Assembly: GCA_944372315.1 (NCBI GenBank)
Contig: CALVYX010000005.1
Span: 1-28,358 of the forward strand
Reading direction: 5' to 3'
DNA: 28,358 nt
From: an uncultured Bacilli bacterium
GTDB taxonomy: Bacteria > Bacillota_I > Bacilli_A > RF39 > UBA660
Positions 139-24,430 of the stretch are shown in pieces (positions within the stretch are counted from its first letter, which is position 1; each line of letters starts with the position of its first letter). The notes beneath the pieces are model-generated. The model was not told the DNA's origin, ran no database searches, and saw only the letters and a list, made by a program, of their open reading frames with translations. A program made the position numbers and the translations under genes.

Positions 139-873
139 CTATTTATATGAAACATCTACTAAATATAATCCTTCTGGTTTCGCTGTGTATACATATTTAT
201 CAGATGCTTCGTTTTTTAGCAATTTTTCAATAATCTCAACCGGTAATTTATCCTTACCTATTTTAATTAAAGTACCAACCATATTTCTTACTTGATACTT
301 CATAAAACCATTACCACCAAAAGTAAATACTACTATATCATTATCTACTTCTATATTAGCTTCGTATATAGTTCTTATATAATTATCTTTAATCGCTTCG
401 TTGGACACAAATATTTTAAAATCATATGTTCCTATAAAACTAGTAATTGCTTTCTTCATTTTATCAATATCTAACTTTTTATTATATTGATAGACGCAAG
501 TTCGCATAAGAGGATTATATTCGCCCATATTTAAATAATATTTATATGTTTTCTTTGTTACCATATATCTAGCATGAAAATCATTATCTACTATTTTAGT
601 TTCTATTACGTGAATATCATCAGGCAATAAACTATTTAAAGCACACTTCAACTTATATAATGTAATATCAATATCTAAATCAAAATGTGCCATTTGTCCT
701 AAGGCATGAACGCCTCTATCCGTTCTTCCAGAAGAAAAGATTCTTGTTTCTTTATGATCATTAATATTATATAATGCTTTTTCTAATTCACCTTCCACCG
801 TTCTTTTATTTGGCTGTTTTTGATAACCGTAAAAGTTCGTTCCATCATAAGAAAATTTAATTACATATCTCAT
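139..873 (-). CDS. truA: tRNA pseudouridine(38-40) synthase TruA
   Basis: TruA converts uridines 38-40 of the tRNA anticodon stem-loop to pseudouridine in the cytoplasm. The 244-residue length is normal for the family. The catalytic motif SSGRTDRGVHALGQ is intact, with the nucleophilic aspartate at residue 52. The N-terminal KFSYDGTNFYGYQKQ segment and the C-terminal YQVRNMVGTL segment are typical TruA blocks. The ATG is preceded by GAAGG. The gene lies 10 bases after the EcfT-like gene, matching the Bacilli order ecfA1-ecfA2-ecfT-truA, so it is probably co-transcribed with them. The usual rplM-rpsI follow-on genes are absent: a terminator comes next. Identification is firm. Confidence 0.97.
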   Translation of the reverse strand: MRYVIKFSYDGTNFYGYQKQPNKRTVEGELEKALYNINDHKETRIFSSGRTDRGVHALGQMAHFDLDIDITLYKLKCALNSLLPDDIHVIETKIVDNDFHARYMVTKKTYKYYLNMGEYNPLMRTCVYQYNKKLDIDKMKKAITSFIGTYDFKIFVSNEAIKDNYIRTIYEANIEVDNDIVVFTFGGNGFMKYQVRNMVGTLIKIGKDKLPVEIIEKLLKNEASDKYVYTAKPEGLYLVDVSYK

Positions 874-883
874 ATCATACCTT

Positions 884-1525
884 CTATCTATAGATTAATA
901 CTAGTGCAAATATTAAAATAGTAACAAATAAAAATGTATTATCACTCTTACCCCATTTCATATCTAGGATAGTTGTCTTTTTATTATAAAACTTATAAAA
1001 ACTTAATTTACTACGATGATAAATATCTTGCATATCATAATTTGTTTTTATTAGAGCTTGATTTACTATATATTTACTATATTTCCTTCTTGTATATTTA
1101 TCAATAGTATTATAAACATTTAAATTACTATTAAATTTTTTATTTTTGAAGCAGTTATTTAAATATACTTTCATTGCTGTTTTAGATTTACTACGATAAA
1201 ACAATTTGTCGACAATATATCTTTTTTCTTTAGGTCTAGTCATAGATTTCATATTTAAATAGAAAACATATAATAACAAAACTTTAACAAGAATTAAAAG
1301 AAAAGGATGAGCATAATAAAACATAGCAATAATTACTAATATGATTGACATCTGGAGTGATTCAAAATTTTTTAATATTGCTGATATTACTATACTAATA
1401 CCTACTAAGGTAAAGACTAAATAAGTATTATCAACTAAAATAATAGATATCATCATCAATAATAATCCTATTAATTTAGCATATAAATTTAATTCTTTCA
1501 AACTATGACACACTTTTGTAAACAT
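884..1525 (-). CDS. Shortened, divergent EcfT-like membrane protein
   Basis: The 213-residue protein has a hydrophobic N-terminal half (about residues 15-90, three to four membrane segments), a long Lys/Tyr/Asn-rich basic middle (about 95-190) and one C-terminal membrane segment (about 195-212). Its place directly after two ABC ATPases and before truA is that of EcfT, the ECF-transporter transmembrane subunit that couples ATPases to substrate-binding S components. It is shorter than usual EcfT (roughly 260 residues) and I cannot find the paired Ala-Arg-Gly coupling motifs. It overlaps the preceding ATPase gene by 23 bases, so translation is likely coupled. The EcfT call rests mainly on position; the sequence alone would be read only as a membrane protein. 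Confidence 0.5.
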   Translation of the reverse strand: MFTKVCHSLKELNLYAKLIGLLLMMISIILVDNTYLVFTLVGISIVISAILKNFESLQMSIILVIIAMFYYAHPFLLILVKVLLLYVFYLNMKSMTRPKEKRYIVDKLFYRSKSKTAMKVYLNNCFKNKKFNSNLNVYNTIDKYTRRKYSKYIVNQALIKTNYDMQDIYHRSKLSFYKFYNKKTTILDMKWGKSDNTFLFVTILIFALVLIYR

Positions 1526-2279
1526 CTTTTATCACATCTCTTACATCTTTTCTATAAAATAAATGAGCACCTTTCTCATTATTTGCTTTATATGCTAATA
1601 ATGAGAAATAAGGAACTTCTATATTATTATTTAATAATACTTCTATATTAGAATAAACATCATTGGTAGGACCACCAATTAATACTTTTCCTTTATTAAA
1701 AATTACTATCTCATCCGTTAATTCATACAAAATATTACTATTAGAACTCGTTAAAATAATTAAAATTCCTTGTTCTTTTAATTCTTCAATCAAATTTTTT
1801 ATTACTTTTTTATTTCTATAGTCCATACCGCTCATAATATCTTTGAAAATTATAATTTTAGGTCTATATATTAAATTAGCGACCAGTTTGATAAAATACT
1901 TCTCAGTATTTGATAGACTATGCGTAATTCTTTTTAAAATACTAAGATCTAAATTAAATTTTTCTAACAAAGTATTAATTTCTTCTTTCATATTACGACT
2001 TTTATAACCTCTTATTTTTGAATAAAATAATATTTCATCTATTACTTTAGAAGTATAAAAAGGCATATCTTTATCAAGAATAGCAATTATTTTAGAATCA
2101 TATTTATGATATATTTTACCATCAATAGAAATATTACCTTTTTCTATTAATTTAGGATTTACTAGTACTTTTATAAAAGTATTATAATTATAAATACCAT
2201 TTATTTTATTACTATTCAAAGTAATATTTACATTATTAAGTTTGGTTTTATAATTCACATCATTAAACTTTATTTCCAT
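1503..2279 (-). CDS. Degenerate ABC ATPase in the ecfA2 position (Walker A lost)
   Basis: The 258-residue protein has the layout of an ECF ATPase but lacks its chemistry. Where the P-loop should be (about residues 27-35) the sequence is NGIYNYNTF, with no GxxGxGKS/T. The signature region reads SLSNTEKYF instead of LSGGQ. The Walker B region reads IIIFKDIMSGMD, so the Asp-Glu pair is replaced by Lys-Asp. The H-loop reads LTSSNSN and has no His. Flanking secondary-structure blocks (RPKIII, the ELTDEIVIFNKGKVL end) remain ABC-like. It overlaps both neighbours, by 10 and 23 bases. An open full-length frame with normal codons argues for a maintained pseudoenzyme rather than a decaying gene. Its likely partner is the upstream ATPase. 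Confidence 0.7.
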   Translation of the reverse strand: MEIKFNDVNYKTKLNNVNITLNSNKINGIYNYNTFIKVLVNPKLIEKGNISIDGKIYHKYDSKIIAILDKDMPFYTSKVIDEILFYSKIRGYKSRNMKEEINTLLEKFNLDLSILKRITHSLSNTEKYFIKLVANLIYRPKIIIFKDIMSGMDYRNKKVIKNLIEELKEQGILIILTSSNSNILYELTDEIVIFNKGKVLIGGPTNDVYSNIEVLLNNNIEVPYFSLLAYKANNEKGAHLFYRKDVRDVIKDVYKSVS

Positions 2280-3076
2280 AATTTATCCACCATCCTATCA
2301 ACATCCGTGATTACTTCGTCAATAATTCCATAGAAACTAAGTTTAAGTGATAAATCAATCATTGGCGGAATTATAAATCCCGCTTTAGATAATTCATTAT
2401 CATGTTGTAAAACATTTTTAGGGCGATCATGAATTAAAATGTTGCCATTATTCATTACTATTACATCATCAAATAATAAAATTTGATCTAAATTACTACT
2501 AGTTATAAAGATAGTTGTATCCTTTTTTATTCTATTTAAAAATTTAAAAATCTTCTTTATTTCTATATCATTTAATTTAGAAAAAGGATTATCTAAAAAA
2601 ATAATTTTAGGTTTATGAATCATAGAAATTCCAATTAATACTTTCACTTGCTCATAATAAGTTAGTTCACTTATTTTCTTATTCAAACAATTTTGTAAAT
2701 CTAAAATATCTCTTATTTCGTATATTCTATTAATAATGACATCTTTTTTATAATTTAAATTTTCTAGTGGAAAAGCTAATTCATCTAATACATTATCAAA
2801 CAAGAATCGATTGGGATCATCAAAAAATACTACTCCTATAGATAACATATATTTTCTTATATTTTGTTTATTTAATTTTATATTATCGATACTAATACTT
2901 CCATTACTTGGAAGAATGCCACTCAAAAGTCTAATTAGTGTTGTTTTACCACTTCCATTAGACCCTAGTAACAGATTAATAGTTTCTTTTTTTATCGAAA
3001 ATTGTAGGTCATTAAAGATAGTTTGATTGCTATTATAAGAATAAGTTAAGTTACTAACTTCTAGTATATTATCCAT
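2270..3076 (-). CDS. ABC ATPase in the ecfA1 position with altered catalytic residues
   Basis: The 268-residue ABC ATPase has an intact Walker A (GSNGSGKTT, residues 38-46, Lys44), so it probably binds nucleotide. The Q-loop Gln is Phe85, the signature is LTYYE (138-142) instead of LSGGQ, Walker B keeps Asp162 but the catalytic Glu is Asn163, and the H-loop His is Ser193. The start at 3076 is supported by GAGGTG five bases upstream. It heads a three-gene overlapping set ending with truA, the syntenic position of EcfA1. In ordinary ECF transporters the two ATPases power vitamin or metal uptake. Here hydrolysis looks weak or absent, so the product may be structural or regulatory, though a highly diverged active pair cannot be excluded. 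Confidence 0.75.
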   Translation of the reverse strand: MDNILEVSNLTYSYNSNQTIFNDLQFSIKKETINLLLGSNGSGKTTLIRLLSGILPSNGSISIDNIKLNKQNIRKYMLSIGVVFFDDPNRFLFDNVLDELAFPLENLNYKKDVIINRIYEIRDILDLQNCLNKKISELTYYEQVKVLIGISMIHKPKIIFLDNPFSKLNDIEIKKIFKFLNRIKKDTTIFITSSNLDQILLFDDVIVMNNGNILIHDRPKNVLQHDNELSKAGFIIPPMIDLSLKLSFYGIIDEVITDVDRMVDKLWK

Positions 3077-3131: not shown

Positions 3132-4439
3132 CTAAAAAGGCATTTTCATATTACCGTTTGAAATTTGTTTCATCATCTTTTTCATCTGTTCAAATTGCGT
3201 TAATAATTTATTAACTTCTTGCACAGATAATCCGCATCCTTTAGCGATTCTTGTTTTACGACTAGCCTTAATAATATCTGGATTACGTCTTTCACTAGGA
3301 GTCATGGATAAAATAATGGCTTCTACATGTGCTAATTGTTTAGGATCTACTTTAATATTATTTAATCCTAATTTAGATGCACCCGGTATTAGTTTAAGTA
3401 GATTTTCCAGTGGTCCTAATTTTTTGATTTGTTTCATTTGTGATAGGAAATCATCTAAATCAAATTTACCTGACTGCATTTTCTTAGCGGCTTTCTCTGC
3501 TTCTTTTTCATCAATAGCTTCCGTTGCTTTTTCAACAAGAGAGATAATATCCCCCATTCCTAAAATTCTACCAGCCATACGCTCTGGATCGAAATAATCG
3601 ATTCCATCCATTTTCTCACTAGTACCGATAAATTTAATAGGAACATTAGTAAGATGCCTTACAGATAGCGCAACTCCACCTTTCGTATCACCATCTAATT
3701 TAGTAAGTATAACACCCGTTAATGGTAGAGCATTATTGAATCCTTCAATAACATTAATAGCATCTTGTCCCATCATAGCATCAATTACTAATAATATTTC
3801 ATCTGGATTAACAGAAGCTTTAATGTTATCTAACTCTTGCATTAAATTATCATCAATGTGAAGACGTCCAGCAGTGTCGATCAAAACATAATCATAATTA
3901 TTTTCTTTGGCATATTTAATTGCATTATTAGCAATTTCCACAGGATCTTTTTTTCCTTCTTCATATACTTCAATATTTAATCCACTACCAATTTGTTTTA
4001 ATTGATCAATTGCAGCAGGTCGATATACATCACAAGCTACTAATAGTGGCTTCTTCTTATGTTTCTTTCTAAGTAGATTAGCAAGTTTACCAATCGTTGT
4101 TGTTTTACCACTACCTTGCAGTCCAACCAACATTAAAATTGCAGGATTCCCATTTATTTTTAAATCTTCTTTTTCGCCACCTAATAATTCAGTCAATTCA
4201 TCTTTTACTATTTTTACAAAGACATCTCCCGGTTTTAGGCTTCTTTTTACTTCTTCTCCTAAAGCTTTCTCCTTAACATTATTAATAAATTCTTTTACAA
4301 CTTTATAGTTAACATCTGCTTCTAATAGTGCAAGACGGATTTCTCTTGTCATTTCACTGATGTTTTCTTCCGTTATTTTCCCATAACCTTTTATTTTAGA
4401 TACAACCGTCTGTAATCTATCTCCTAAGCTTTCAAACAT
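3132..4439 (-). CDS. ffh: Signal recognition particle protein Ffh
   Basis: Ffh binds signal sequences and SRP RNA and, with FtsY, delivers nascent membrane proteins to the translocon. The 435 residues show the N domain, the GTPase P-loop GLQGSGKTT, DTAGRLH, and TKLDGDTKGG (G4/G5). The M domain includes FDLDDFLSQ, the SERRNPDII block and RIAKGCG, the RNA-binding helix-turn-helix. The C-terminal tail is short and Met/Lys-rich. The start is supported by AGAGTGAT upstream. It lies in the operon ftsY-ylxM-herA-like-ffh; the usual ylxM-ffh adjacency is interrupted by the HerA-like gene 25 bases upstream. Identification is certain. Confidence 0.98.
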   Translation of the reverse strand: MFESLGDRLQTVVSKIKGYGKITEENISEMTREIRLALLEADVNYKVVKEFINNVKEKALGEEVKRSLKPGDVFVKIVKDELTELLGGEKEDLKINGNPAILMLVGLQGSGKTTTIGKLANLLRKKHKKKPLLVACDVYRPAAIDQLKQIGSGLNIEVYEEGKKDPVEIANNAIKYAKENNYDYVLIDTAGRLHIDDNLMQELDNIKASVNPDEILLVIDAMMGQDAINVIEGFNNALPLTGVILTKLDGDTKGGVALSVRHLTNVPIKFIGTSEKMDGIDYFDPERMAGRILGMGDIISLVEKATEAIDEKEAEKAAKKMQSGKFDLDDFLSQMKQIKKLGPLENLLKLIPGASKLGLNNIKVDPKQLAHVEAIILSMTPSERRNPDIIKASRKTRIAKGCGLSVQEVNKLLTQFEQMKKMMKQISNGNMKMPF

Positions 4440-4464: not shown

Positions 4465-6219
4465 TTATTCTGTCCAGTATCTAACTACATCACTATTTGT
4501 ACTTAATGGCATTGGATCAGGCATTTCCATTCTAGCAATAACTGGTATCTTAAATGCCGTTCCAAATCCTAAACAAGTACCAGATTGTAACCCCTTTTGT
4601 TTTTCTACTATTTCTGTATTAATATTTGGAATCATATTTTTAATATACTCAACGTCTAATGGATGATTTGTTTTAAAAATCAAGAAATTAGAACATTGAG
4701 ATATAACAGTATCGGATAATTCTACTGGTCGCTGAGAAATAACGCCTAACATTACTCCATATTTTCTTCCTTCTTTAGCTACACGATTAAAGATATTAAA
4801 TCCATATAAGAAGTCATCACTATCATTATTTTTAATATATCTATGAGCTTCATCCACTAAGATATTAAAAGGAACTGAGCCTCTATTAGGAATGCGTTTA
4901 GCATAATCAAAAATTAATCTTGTAAAAATTTTAGTTATAACAGCAGCAAACGAATCATCCATATCATCTAAATTTATATTAACAATTTGGCATTTTCTTC
5001 CATTAGGAGCGAACAAATAATTCATATATTGATCAATGTTAATAAATTCAGGAAATGTAAAGATGCTGCTATATGGACCTGTCAATAATGAACGCAATCT
5101 AACTCTTATTGTCATAGCATCTGAATAAGTTTGCTTATTTTTGTACCATCCATCAGATATTAATGTAAACTCTAAAGCTTTTTCAAAATCATTAAGTGTA
5201 AAGTAAGAATTATTGGCTGGCTCATAACTGTCAAATTGGGCATCAATAAATTTAGATACATATTCAGTAACTAAAATACTTTCAGTAAAAGTACCGGTTT
5301 TATCAATATTAAAGCAATCTCTAAATAGCCTAGTATATCCTACTCCTTGAACTACGGAATCCATACTAAATTGCGGAGTACTACAAGAATCAATAATCCT
5401 AAATATATCATTTTTCTTATTTGCTGGAGAAGAATCACTAAATAATACTCCCATAATTGCTTTTGCTATAATATGGTTTTTATAATTAATCGCTTGATCT
5501 CCTGCTTCCGCAAATGATCTAGCTAATTTTAAAGTTTTTTCAATCATTGGAATTTGAGAATGAGTATTGGCCATCAATAAGGAAGAAATATCATTGACAC
5601 CTAGTAGCCAAATAGGAATTCTTAATCTTTCCACAGTATTATCAGTTAAACTAGTTGTAAAAACACGATAATTAAAATTAGGGTTAATACCATTAATCGT
5701 AGAAAAAGCATTAGTATATTCACCAGAAGCATCAAAAATAACAAAATTAGCCTTATATGGTACTACATTAGGATTTTTAAATACATTTTGCATTAATCTT
5801 GCTAATCCACAGGATTTACCACTTCCACTATTACCAAAAATAGCAAAGTGATTACTAAAAAACTTATTAACATCTAAATAAATAGGATGATTATTATAAT
5901 AAGGACTAGCTCCCAACAATAAAGCATTCTTTTGACTTTGACCTAAAATTAAAGGTATTTCATTTTCTAAGAGTGGTCTTATCTCAGCATCTAATAATGG
6001 TTTTCTAATAACACCACCATATAATTCCCCATCTCTAAATTCTCCAAGAAGTTTTATTTTTACCACACGATCCTTAATTTCTTCAATTTCACCTAACAGT
6101 TGTTTTTCATTATCAGATATAACTACATGAACATTCAATAAATTGTTCTTTACTTCAACAGCTTCTTTAATACTAACAAAGATATTAGTATCATTCATAA
6201 AATTAATTTTATTAAACAT
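4465..6219 (-). CDS. HerA-family (DUF87) hexameric ATPase
   Basis: The 584-residue protein has an N-terminal small beta-barrel-like region (about 1-110) that fits the HAS-barrel of HerA. A FtsK/HerA-type ATPase domain follows, with Walker A GNSGSGKS (about 133-140), Walker B NILVDEAHRYI, and a downstream SQRP segment with QCSNFLIFKTNH, typical of HerA sensor and arginine-finger regions. HerA proteins are DNA translocases that work with NurA nuclease in archaea, and in bacteria often with nucleases or Sir2 proteins in defence systems. No such partner is encoded here. It sits 17 bases after ylxM and 25 bases before ffh, so it is co-transcribed with the targeting genes. Family is clear; the cellular role in this context is unknown. 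Confidence 0.85.
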   Translation of the reverse strand: MFNKINFMNDTNIFVSIKEAVEVKNNLLNVHVVISDNEKQLLGEIEEIKDRVVKIKLLGEFRDGELYGGVIRKPLLDAEIRPLLENEIPLILGQSQKNALLLGASPYYNNHPIYLDVNKFFSNHFAIFGNSGSGKSCGLARLMQNVFKNPNVVPYKANFVIFDASGEYTNAFSTINGINPNFNYRVFTTSLTDNTVERLRIPIWLLGVNDISSLLMANTHSQIPMIEKTLKLARSFAEAGDQAINYKNHIIAKAIMGVLFSDSSPANKKNDIFRIIDSCSTPQFSMDSVVQGVGYTRLFRDCFNIDKTGTFTESILVTEYVSKFIDAQFDSYEPANNSYFTLNDFEKALEFTLISDGWYKNKQTYSDAMTIRVRLRSLLTGPYSSIFTFPEFINIDQYMNYLFAPNGRKCQIVNINLDDMDDSFAAVITKIFTRLIFDYAKRIPNRGSVPFNILVDEAHRYIKNNDSDDFLYGFNIFNRVAKEGRKYGVMLGVISQRPVELSDTVISQCSNFLIFKTNHPLDVEYIKNMIPNINTEIVEKQKGLQSGTCLGFGTAFKIPVIARMEMPDPMPLSTNSDVVRYWTE

Positions 6220-13352: not shown

Positions 13353-13379
13353 AAAAAAAGTCCTTATTTATATAAGGAC
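13353..13379 (-). terminator. T-box-controlled terminator upstream of deoC
   Basis: An 8-bp stem (13360-13367 with 13372-13379, GTCCTTAT/ATAAGGAC) with a 4-base loop and seven T on the minus strand. It competes with the T-box antiterminator. Confidence 0.9.
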
Positions 13380-13546
13380 GAAATTCTCGTGGTACCACCT
13401 TAATTCATAGCAAACACTATGCACTCTAATACTATAAAGCGTAACCTATATGACTCCAAATTTGTATTTCATCATTCTATTAATATTAGTTTCCACCTAT
13501 CACTAATTCTCTATATTTATTAATAGATAATTACTATAATTCTTCA
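13353..13546 (-). ncRNA. T-box leader (tyrosine) controlling deoC-tyrS
   Basis: The minus strand has the T-box AAGGTGGTACCACG (around 13386-13400) followed by the terminator. Upstream is a stem I with loop-E/AGAGAATTAGTG and GGTGGAAACTA signatures. Helix CTATTAATA/TATTAATAG leads to a specifier loop reading GATGAAATACA, where TAC (13464-13466) is a Tyr codon followed by a purine. A -10-like TATAAA lies at 13553-13558. Uncharged tRNA-Tyr would stabilise the antiterminator and allow transcription of deoC and tyrS. The specifier assignment is by alignment with the second T-box in the window. Confidence 0.92.
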
Positions 13547-13574
13547 TTGCCATTTATATCTAACATTTTAACAT

Positions 13575-24226: not shown

Positions 24227-24253
24227 AAAAAAAGCATCCTTACATAAGGACGC
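24227..24253 (-). terminator. T-box-controlled terminator upstream of the leuS operon
   Basis: A 9-bp stem (24234-24242 with 24245-24253, one G-U pair, loop effectively about six bases) followed by seven T on the minus strand. It competes with the T-box antiterminator. Confidence 0.88.
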
Positions 24254-24430
24254 TAAAAACACGTGGTACCACCTTAATTCATAGATTAATCTATGCACTT
24301 AATGTTGTTAACGCAAACGTCTGCGATTACTTATAATGAGAACAAGTTCATAAAACAATTATTATAGTTTCCACCTACCACTAATTCTCTTTCAATAATT
24401 AGTTTTACTACTACTTTCCCAAGTAATTAA
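24227..24430 (-). ncRNA. T-box leader (leucine) controlling the leuS operon
   Basis: The minus strand carries AAGGTGGTACCACG (around 24262-24275), identical to the T-box of the tyrosine leader, and the stem I signature AGAGAATTAGTGGTAGGTGG. Helix AATTATT/AATAATT leads to the specifier loop ATGAACTTG; by alignment the codon is CTT (24344-24346, Leu) followed by a purine and then the basal stem GGGAA/TTCTC. TTG one base away is also Leu, so amino acid identity is robust. Uncharged tRNA-Leu would switch on the membrane-protein gene and leuS. Confidence 0.93.

Follow-up and report, generated by a model that had tools for sequence, protein, structure and literature searches.

Catalytically degenerate EcfA1 and EcfA2 proteins beside truA in an uncultured Bacilli bacterium and its relatives

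We examined a 28,358-nucleotide (nt) stretch of DNA from an uncultured Bacilli bacterium (GenBank assembly GCA_944372315.1, contig CALVYX010000005.1, positions 1 to 28,358; the window), in which three genes beside truA occupy the places of ecfA1, ecfA2 and ecfT, the module that energises energy-coupling factor (ECF) transporters. Calculation revealed the loss of catalytic residues from both ATP-binding cassette (ABC) ATPases, purifying selection on the module among the window and two relatives, the repeated absence of EcfT from loci that keep EcfA1 and EcfA2, and a tendency of the C-terminal tails of the ATPases to outlast the catalytic core. We judge it probable that EcfA1 and EcfA2 of the window form an ATP-clamped heterodimer without catalytic activity, which selection maintains for a role other than transport.

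Loss of catalytic residues in the window module

The order of transcription, on the minus strand, is ffh, an EcfA1-like gene, an EcfA2-like gene, the gene in the EcfT position and truA. An ecfA1-ecfA2-ecfT order adjoining truA is that of group II ECF transporter modules, and ecfA1-ecfA2-ecfT-truA is the ancestral arrangement in Bacilli (PMC8046335). An earlier reading of this DNA made without database searches (the sequence-only reading) had described three intact, overlapping frames next to truA, and the coordinates and translations bear this out: each frame starts with ATG, is open throughout and ends in a single terminal stop; the two ATPase genes overlap by 10 nt, ecfA2 and the EcfT-position gene overlap by 23 nt, and the latter stops 10 nt ahead of truA. 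Both ATPases belong to the EcfA family by sequence. The best NCBIfam match of EcfA1 is TIGR04520 (E 1e-44; 153 bits, cut-off 315) and that of EcfA2 is TIGR04521 (ECF_ATPase_2; 78 bits, cut-off 330); the equivalog cut-offs of ECF_ATPase_1 and ECF_ATPase_2 were not reached.

EcfA1 keeps Walker A with Lys44, has Phe85 at the Q-loop and LTYYE for the signature, and reads IIFLDNPF at Walker B (Asn163 for the catalytic Glu) and ITSSN in the switch region. These are the residues given in the sequence-only reading except for the switch His, whose alignment column holds Ser194 and not Ser193. EcfA2 has NGIYNYNTF at the place of Walker A, FKD for the Walker B Asp-Glu and TSSN at the switch, so that all the losses reported for this protein were found in its sequence. 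Walker A is thus present in EcfA1 and absent from EcfA2, and the catalytic Glu is absent from both (Asn163 in EcfA1, Lys-Asp in EcfA2).

The same residues are lost in homologues. We counted residues in 51 aligned rows for EcfA1 (the window and 50 of 120 listed homologues) and in 48 for EcfA2 (the window and 47 of 51 homologues). In EcfA1, Walker A is nearly invariant (Gly43 51/51, Lys44 50/51, Thr45 51/51), as is the Walker B Asp162 (51/51), whilst the catalytic Glu occurs in no row (Asn in 45, Asp in 5, Ser in 1) and neither does the switch His (0/51). In EcfA2, Walker A is found in one of the 48 rows (P0050) and the Walker B Asp-Glu in two (P0046 and P0050), both from proteins at most 35% identical to the window EcfA2. 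A signature stub, LSNTE, absent from the sequence-only reading, is kept in EcfA2 (L122 48/48, S123 48/48, E126 46/48).

In an ABC dimer of this kind, composite site 1 is made of the Walker A and B motifs of EcfA1 and the signature of EcfA2. Since the EcfA1 motifs and the EcfA2 stub are retained, parts of one ATP-binding site remain, without the catalytic base, and the other site is gone. There is therefore no complete ATPase site in the window module, and the one consensus site that remains in ABC proteins with a single degenerate nucleotide site is missing here. In the heterodimeric exporters TAP, TM287/288, ABCB11 and ABCC7, as described in PMC7756269 and PMC7544095, one site has lost its Walker B Glu and in many cases its H-loop; there the other site is kept, whereas in the window module none is complete.

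The EcfT-position protein had been called short and devoid of the coupling motifs, and both points hold: it has 213 residues, and the Ala-Ser-Arg-Gly motif and second x-Arg-x motif present in the relatives L106, L123 and L129 are missing from it. No Pfam or NCBIfam family matched it, and it joined an iterated EcfT profile search only in later rounds. A profile of the proteins of the window clade produced no EcfT match among PDB sequences, only chance matches, whereas a wider family profile, which includes long EcfT proteins, does match EcfT there. Against a profile built from 13 long EcfT proteins of this family, an intermediate protein (L117) scores 36 bits (composition bias 40). When the predicted structure of the window EcfT-position protein was compared, each of the 11 best VIA rows was EcfT or CbiQ, and the EcfT of PDB entry 8BMS is the top match in both Foldseek and VIA (VIA rows 1-4 are tied); the rows of these searches that are neither EcfT nor CbiQ were discounted as non-specific, helical matches. 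We use the EcfT label because of gene position, the intermediates and the predicted fold. The EcfA2 model has a predicted local distance difference test score (pLDDT) of 92.9, and its best PDB matches are EcfA/CbiO chains.

The module resembles the group II module EcfA1-EcfA2-EcfT (for example L. delbrueckii; PDB 5JSZ, 7NNU, 8BMS) in gene order beside truA, in ATPase homology and, as far as the models go, in a predicted EcfA fold of EcfA2 and a tentative EcfT-like fold of the membrane protein. It differs in having no complete ATPase site and no coupling Arg motifs, in the lack of a match to four Pfam models of substrate-binding (S) components in the close relative G001, and in that EcfT was not found in 41 of 84 loci of its family, as described below.

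Pairwise codon models were applied to a trio made up of the window, G001 and G002. Omega, the ratio of nonsynonymous to synonymous rates, was 0.03-0.06 for EcfA1, 0.06-0.12 for EcfA2 and 0.04-0.05 for the EcfT-position protein, with controls of 0.03-0.04 for truA and <0.01 for ffh. An omega of 1 was rejected in every comparison of the trio, with 2dlnL of 49-147 for the three module genes. When neutral evolution was simulated to 0.25 substitutions per site, 0 to 0.1% of runs ended with a stop-free frame. On this sequence evidence the module appears to be neither decay nor an assembly error. The sequence-only reading had proposed that it was repurposed rather than simply decayed, perhaps as an ATP-binding sensor or a structural membrane complex, with purifying selection as the expected sign. 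That selection is present, and the open frames, the omega values, the losses shared across the clade and the conservation of Lys44 all speak against simple decay; a structural membrane complex fares less well, because the membrane part is dispensable in the many loci with EcfA1 and EcfA2 in which EcfT was not found.

EcfT, motifs and S components across the family

We sampled 98 genomes of the family of G001, in 92 of which truA was matched. Regions around truA were taken from 89 (G020, G067 and G089 were left out, with truA partial or at a contig end), and truA was read in 88 of these; with the window and L002 this gave 90 truA-anchored loci. Iterated profiles found EcfA1 in 84 of them, EcfA2 in 85 and EcfT in 44. 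Both ATPases were present in 84 loci, 43 with EcfT and 41 without. One of the 41 (L143) has a 187-residue membrane open reading frame (ORF) at the EcfT place that looks by eye like a short EcfT, which makes 40 the safer count. There is no space for EcfT in 39 of the 41, where EcfA2 either overlaps truA or ends no more than 131 nt from its start. The family EcfT profile found a copy in 45 of the 98 genomes (PF02361 in 32), and none of these 45 has an EcfT-less locus, i.e. the profile found no copy elsewhere in the genomes whose locus lacks EcfT. PF02361 was matched in 12 of 60 genomes of an order-level sample that overlaps the family sample. A TruA tree requires 10 changes of the EcfT label, of which starred branches force at least 4; the tree is of one gene and was made by a quick method, which makes its stars less trustworthy. 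The loss of EcfT needs several events on this tree.

Both ATPases carry Walker A and the catalytic Glu in 18 of the 84 loci, all with EcfT, and a complete ATPase site was found in none of the 41 loci without it. Among these 41, Walker A is kept in EcfA1 in 34 and in EcfA2 in 6; the EcfA1 Walker B Asp in 37 (with Asp-Asp in 20); the catalytic Glu in EcfA1 in 2 and in EcfA2 in 10; the switch His in EcfA1 in 1 and in EcfA2 in 2; and an LSxxE-type signature in EcfA2 in 36 and in EcfA1 in 15. The half-site retained most often is thus the Walker A and B of EcfA1 with the signature of EcfA2. Relatives with canonical motifs, which the sequence-only reading took as a possible sign of recent decay, therefore do exist, but on the TruA tree the window clade contains none of them, and the loss there is consequently old.

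Conservation tends to persist longer in the C-terminal tails than in the catalytic core. In EcfA1, tail identity is 45% in one clade of 19 loci without EcfT (clade 1), against 19-31% elsewhere in the protein, and 60% against 24-41% in a second clade of 12 such loci (clade 2). The corresponding values are 59% against 44-57% in the window clade (6 loci) and 48% against 41-56% in the 18 full-motif loci. For EcfA2 the tail reaches 37% against 21-33% in clade 1, 59% against 37-51% in the window clade and 48% against 44-62% in the full-motif loci. In ECF structures the ATPases dimerise through such tails, and the tails described here would do the same. The end of the EcfA1 tail lies in the overlap of ecfA1 with ecfA2, which is exactly 10 nt in 76 of the 84 loci and reads ATGGAAATAA in 39 of the 76, so that one frame encodes WK-stop and the second ME; the EcfA1 WK end and the EcfA2 ME start thus constrain each other. 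The conserved interior of the tails falls outside the overlap.

Four Pfam families of S components were searched for. PF12822 was matched in 10 of the 98 genomes at E 1e-3 (2 above the cut-off), PF07155 in 2 (1 above the cut-off) and PF09515 in none. The commonest was PF07456, in 19 of 98, with the window and G002 genomes left out of the search. It is the family of EetB, described in PMC9973259 as the S component for export of flavin adenine dinucleotide to ApbE in Listeria, which requires the ECF ATPases. Among the loci with EcfT, 41 were searched and 17 of these have PF07456, against 0 of the 41 without EcfT (raw counts with no tree correction); it is present in 11 of the 18 full-motif loci, and its other two genomes have no usable locus. 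In G001 there was no match to PF12822, PF07155, PF07456 or PF09515; BioY, QueT and others were outside this search. These distributions and the ApbE-linked arrangements given below suggest that PF07456 flavin export was a late client of the module, and we infer that in much of the family it was the last one and that its loss came before erosion. The family shares with EetB-type exporters (PMC9973259) PF07456 as its commonest S component and a cluster with ApbE in two loci (L079 and L080); it differs in that PF07456 was found neither in G001 nor in the 41 genomes with an EcfT-less locus.

PF07456 lies beside ApbE in L079 and L080, the latter also having NusG_II and a sub-threshold FMN_bind match, and by eye L172 resembles this arrangement. 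In L077 (genome G094; 143-1968) a separate S component with a PF12822/PF07155 match adjoins an intact-looking EcfA and an EcfT-like ORF, as judged by eye, and the truA-linked module of the same genome is very degenerate. A search of G001 and G002 with ECF_ATPase_1 only gave 0/2 above the cut-off, a weak null since the cut-off was reached in only 3 of 14 control genomes.

What the conserved pair may do

The module would descend from the general (group II) ECF energising module and would no longer be a transporter motor. EcfA1 and EcfA2, catalytically dead, may be kept by selection as an obligate heterodimer joined through the C-terminal tails of both. ATP in the window clade would be bound in composite site 1, where EcfA1 would supply Walker A and the Walker B Asp, and EcfA2 the signature stub; with site 2 gone, this ATP would clamp the pair shut without hydrolysis. 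The closest analogue is the laboratory 2EQ module, in which both catalytic Glu are changed to Gln: according to PMC10368641 it binds Mg-ATP and closes but neither hydrolyses nor transports, and its closed EcfT presents no fitting place to S components. The solitary 2EQ module (PDB 8BMS) and the window module are alike in the amide at the catalytic Glu position of EcfA1, in EcfA1 Walker A and, as far as the four Pfam models in G001 show, in lacking an S component; the window module differs in being natural and fixed, in having at most one composite ATP site and in its shortened coupling region, and might be likened to half of the 2EQ state. For the short EcfT, unable to drive an S component, the remaining role would be that of a membrane anchor for the clamp. 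Without EcfT, as in many relatives, the pair would exist in soluble form, and the most eroded relatives would have lost ATP binding as well. What is kept longest would then be the dimer itself, perhaps as a scaffold or regulatory partner of another protein, and the loss of an S component may have been the trigger.

It is also quite possible, and we hold this more tentatively, that the pair became a free-standing pseudo-ATPase: the transporter would have been dismantled repeatedly and independently, with the tail-held heterodimer preserved by selection for a second job, other than transport, that the ancestral working transporter already had. The order of dismantling would be the S component, catalytic residues, one nucleotide site, EcfT and finally ATP binding. 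That the pair is conserved suggests such a second function. EcfA1 and EcfA2 are regarded as motor subunits of vitamin transporters and are hence proposed antibiotic targets; if the pair outlives motor activity, the S component and the membrane subunit, it would have a second role, possibly in ordinary Bacilli too. The graded intermediates make such a role testable, for example by asking what the tails alone still do, and the window module would be a natural counterpart to the engineered ATP-locked one. ECF ATPases that lack catalytic residues or EcfT were not described in the titles and abstract openings of the literature matches listed, whose coverage leaves out most subscription journals, and the accessible parts of two papers on these orders (PMC7301438 and PMC10868615) make no mention of energy-coupling or ECF.

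Several observations weigh against a clamped pair under selection. Outside the trio dS was 5 to 57, i.e. saturated, and we retain there only the rejection of omega = 1. Five loci (L095, L140, L158, L168 and L169) degenerate in the opposite way, having lost EcfA1 Walker A and kept EcfT; all except L140 keep EcfA2 Walker A. The most eroded lineages have lost EcfA1 Walker A too, which rules out an ATP clamp as the general function. A tree-aware test of the joint loss of site-2 parts had 4 independent pairs on starred branches and was not significant, without power, for which reason the asymmetry between sites 1 and 2 is given as counts. The EcfT-position protein of the window scores 8.6 bits against the profile of 13 long EcfT proteins. 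The EcfA2 tail is favoured weakly, and in clade 2 its identity (49% against 29-49%) is tied with that of the signature region; the EcfA1 WK end is partly forced by the 10-nt overlap. Finally, EcfA1 and EcfA2 are both missing from 5 of the 90 loci (L088, L104, L126, L136 and L152), so that the pair is dispensable in some lineages. A tblastn search with six related proteins found no remnants of either ATPase within these loci, and the EcfA2 matches listed for these genomes fall short of the tail. The five loci, which sit at more than one place on the TruA tree, are possibly the end state of the erosion series. Frequent frameshifts, which the sequence-only reading regarded as a mark of decay or assembly error, were not seen, though these loci lack both genes.

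The five loci are also what slow decay under relaxed selection would leave. On that account, which we find rather unlikely, the client was lost and the frames of EcfA1, EcfA2 and EcfT persist through translational coupling to truA-rplM-rpsI. It would explain why degeneration accompanies the absence of PF07456 and why the eroded proteins show little conservation in their cores, and it fits the prevalence of the 10-nt overlap and the 4-nt overlap of EcfA2 with truA in 11 of the 41 loci without EcfT. Coupling keeps the frame, however, and not the amino acids, and does not account for the low omega of the trio, for an EcfA1 tail conserved beyond the overlap or for the 34 columns that are invariant across 41 rows of the window-clade EcfT-position protein. 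Within the genus of G096 the eroded EcfA2 was matched in five of five genomes (one, G103, cut by a contig end), and in the six pairs of the other four it is 56-70% identical, against 67-74% for TruA and 44-49% for EcfA1. These values cut both ways: EcfA2 comes fairly close to TruA in conservation, but it falls somewhat below it, and EcfA1 far below, which counts against selection on the pair.

The retention and conservation of the EcfT-position protein in the window clade would suit an ECF transporter that still works, either hydrolysing ATP with replaced residues or transporting on ATP binding only, with an S component that escapes four Pfam models. Asp for Glu is common in the loci without EcfT, as in the EcfA1 Asp-Asp noted above, and only four S families were searched, none of them in G002 or the window genome. 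We consider this unlikely, given that EcfA2 lacks Walker A, EcfA1 has Asn for Glu, both switch His and the coupling Arg motifs are gone and G001 has no match to the four models; moreover, ECF modules with Glu changed to Gln show no ATP hydrolysis and no transport (PMC10368641), and loci without EcfT cannot be this type of transporter. An assembly or binning artefact, or misplaced homology with other ABC proteins beside truA, is hardly credible even though the genomes used include metagenome-assembled genomes (MAGs), since the same block occurs in two separate MAGs with 84-90% ATPase identity, both ATPases adjoin truA in 84 of 90 loci and the best NCBIfam matches are ECF ATPase models.

Feature coordinates and neighbouring genes

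Positions of the module, its motifs and the flanking genes in the window
Feature	Position	Strand	Remarks
EcfA1-like gene	2270..3076	-	268 residues; Walker A kept, Asn163 at catalytic Glu position
EcfA2-like gene	1503..2279	-	258 residues; without Walker A and Walker B Asp-Glu
EcfT-position membrane protein gene	884..1525	-	213 residues; without coupling Arg motifs
truA	139..873	-	synteny anchor; TIGR00071 227 bits, above cut-off
ffh (signal recognition particle GTPase)	3132..4439	-	upstream neighbour and omega control; named by eye from sequence
A1 Walker A GSNGSGKTT, residues 38-46	2939..2965	-	sequence and alignment
A1 degenerate signature LTYYE, residues 138-142	2651..2665	-	sequence and alignment
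A1 Asn163 replacing catalytic Glu	2588..2590	-	sequence and alignment
A1 C-terminal tail, about residues 216-268	2273..2431	-	limits approximate; best-conserved part in relatives without EcfT
A1 stop/A2 start overlap, 10 nt	2270..2279	-	WK stop / ME start; from coordinates
A2 place of lost Walker A, GIYNYNTF, residues 28-35	2175..2198	-	sequence and alignment
A2 signature stub LSNTE, residues 122-126	1902..1916	-	alignment
A2 Lys146-Asp147 at Walker B Asp-Glu position	1839..1844	-	sequence and alignment
A2 C-terminal tail, about residues 208-258	1506..1658	-	limits approximate

In the relatives L001 and L002, truA is followed by two ribosomal-protein-like genes, rplM and rpsI by eye. On the other side of the module, a HerA-type ATPase (DUF87) is encoded at window positions 4465-6219, between ffh and ylxM- and ftsY-like genes (neighbours named by eye), and the same order of this gene is found in L001 and L002. 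Two T-box leaders lie further along the window on the minus strand, at 13371-13556 and 24243-24427.

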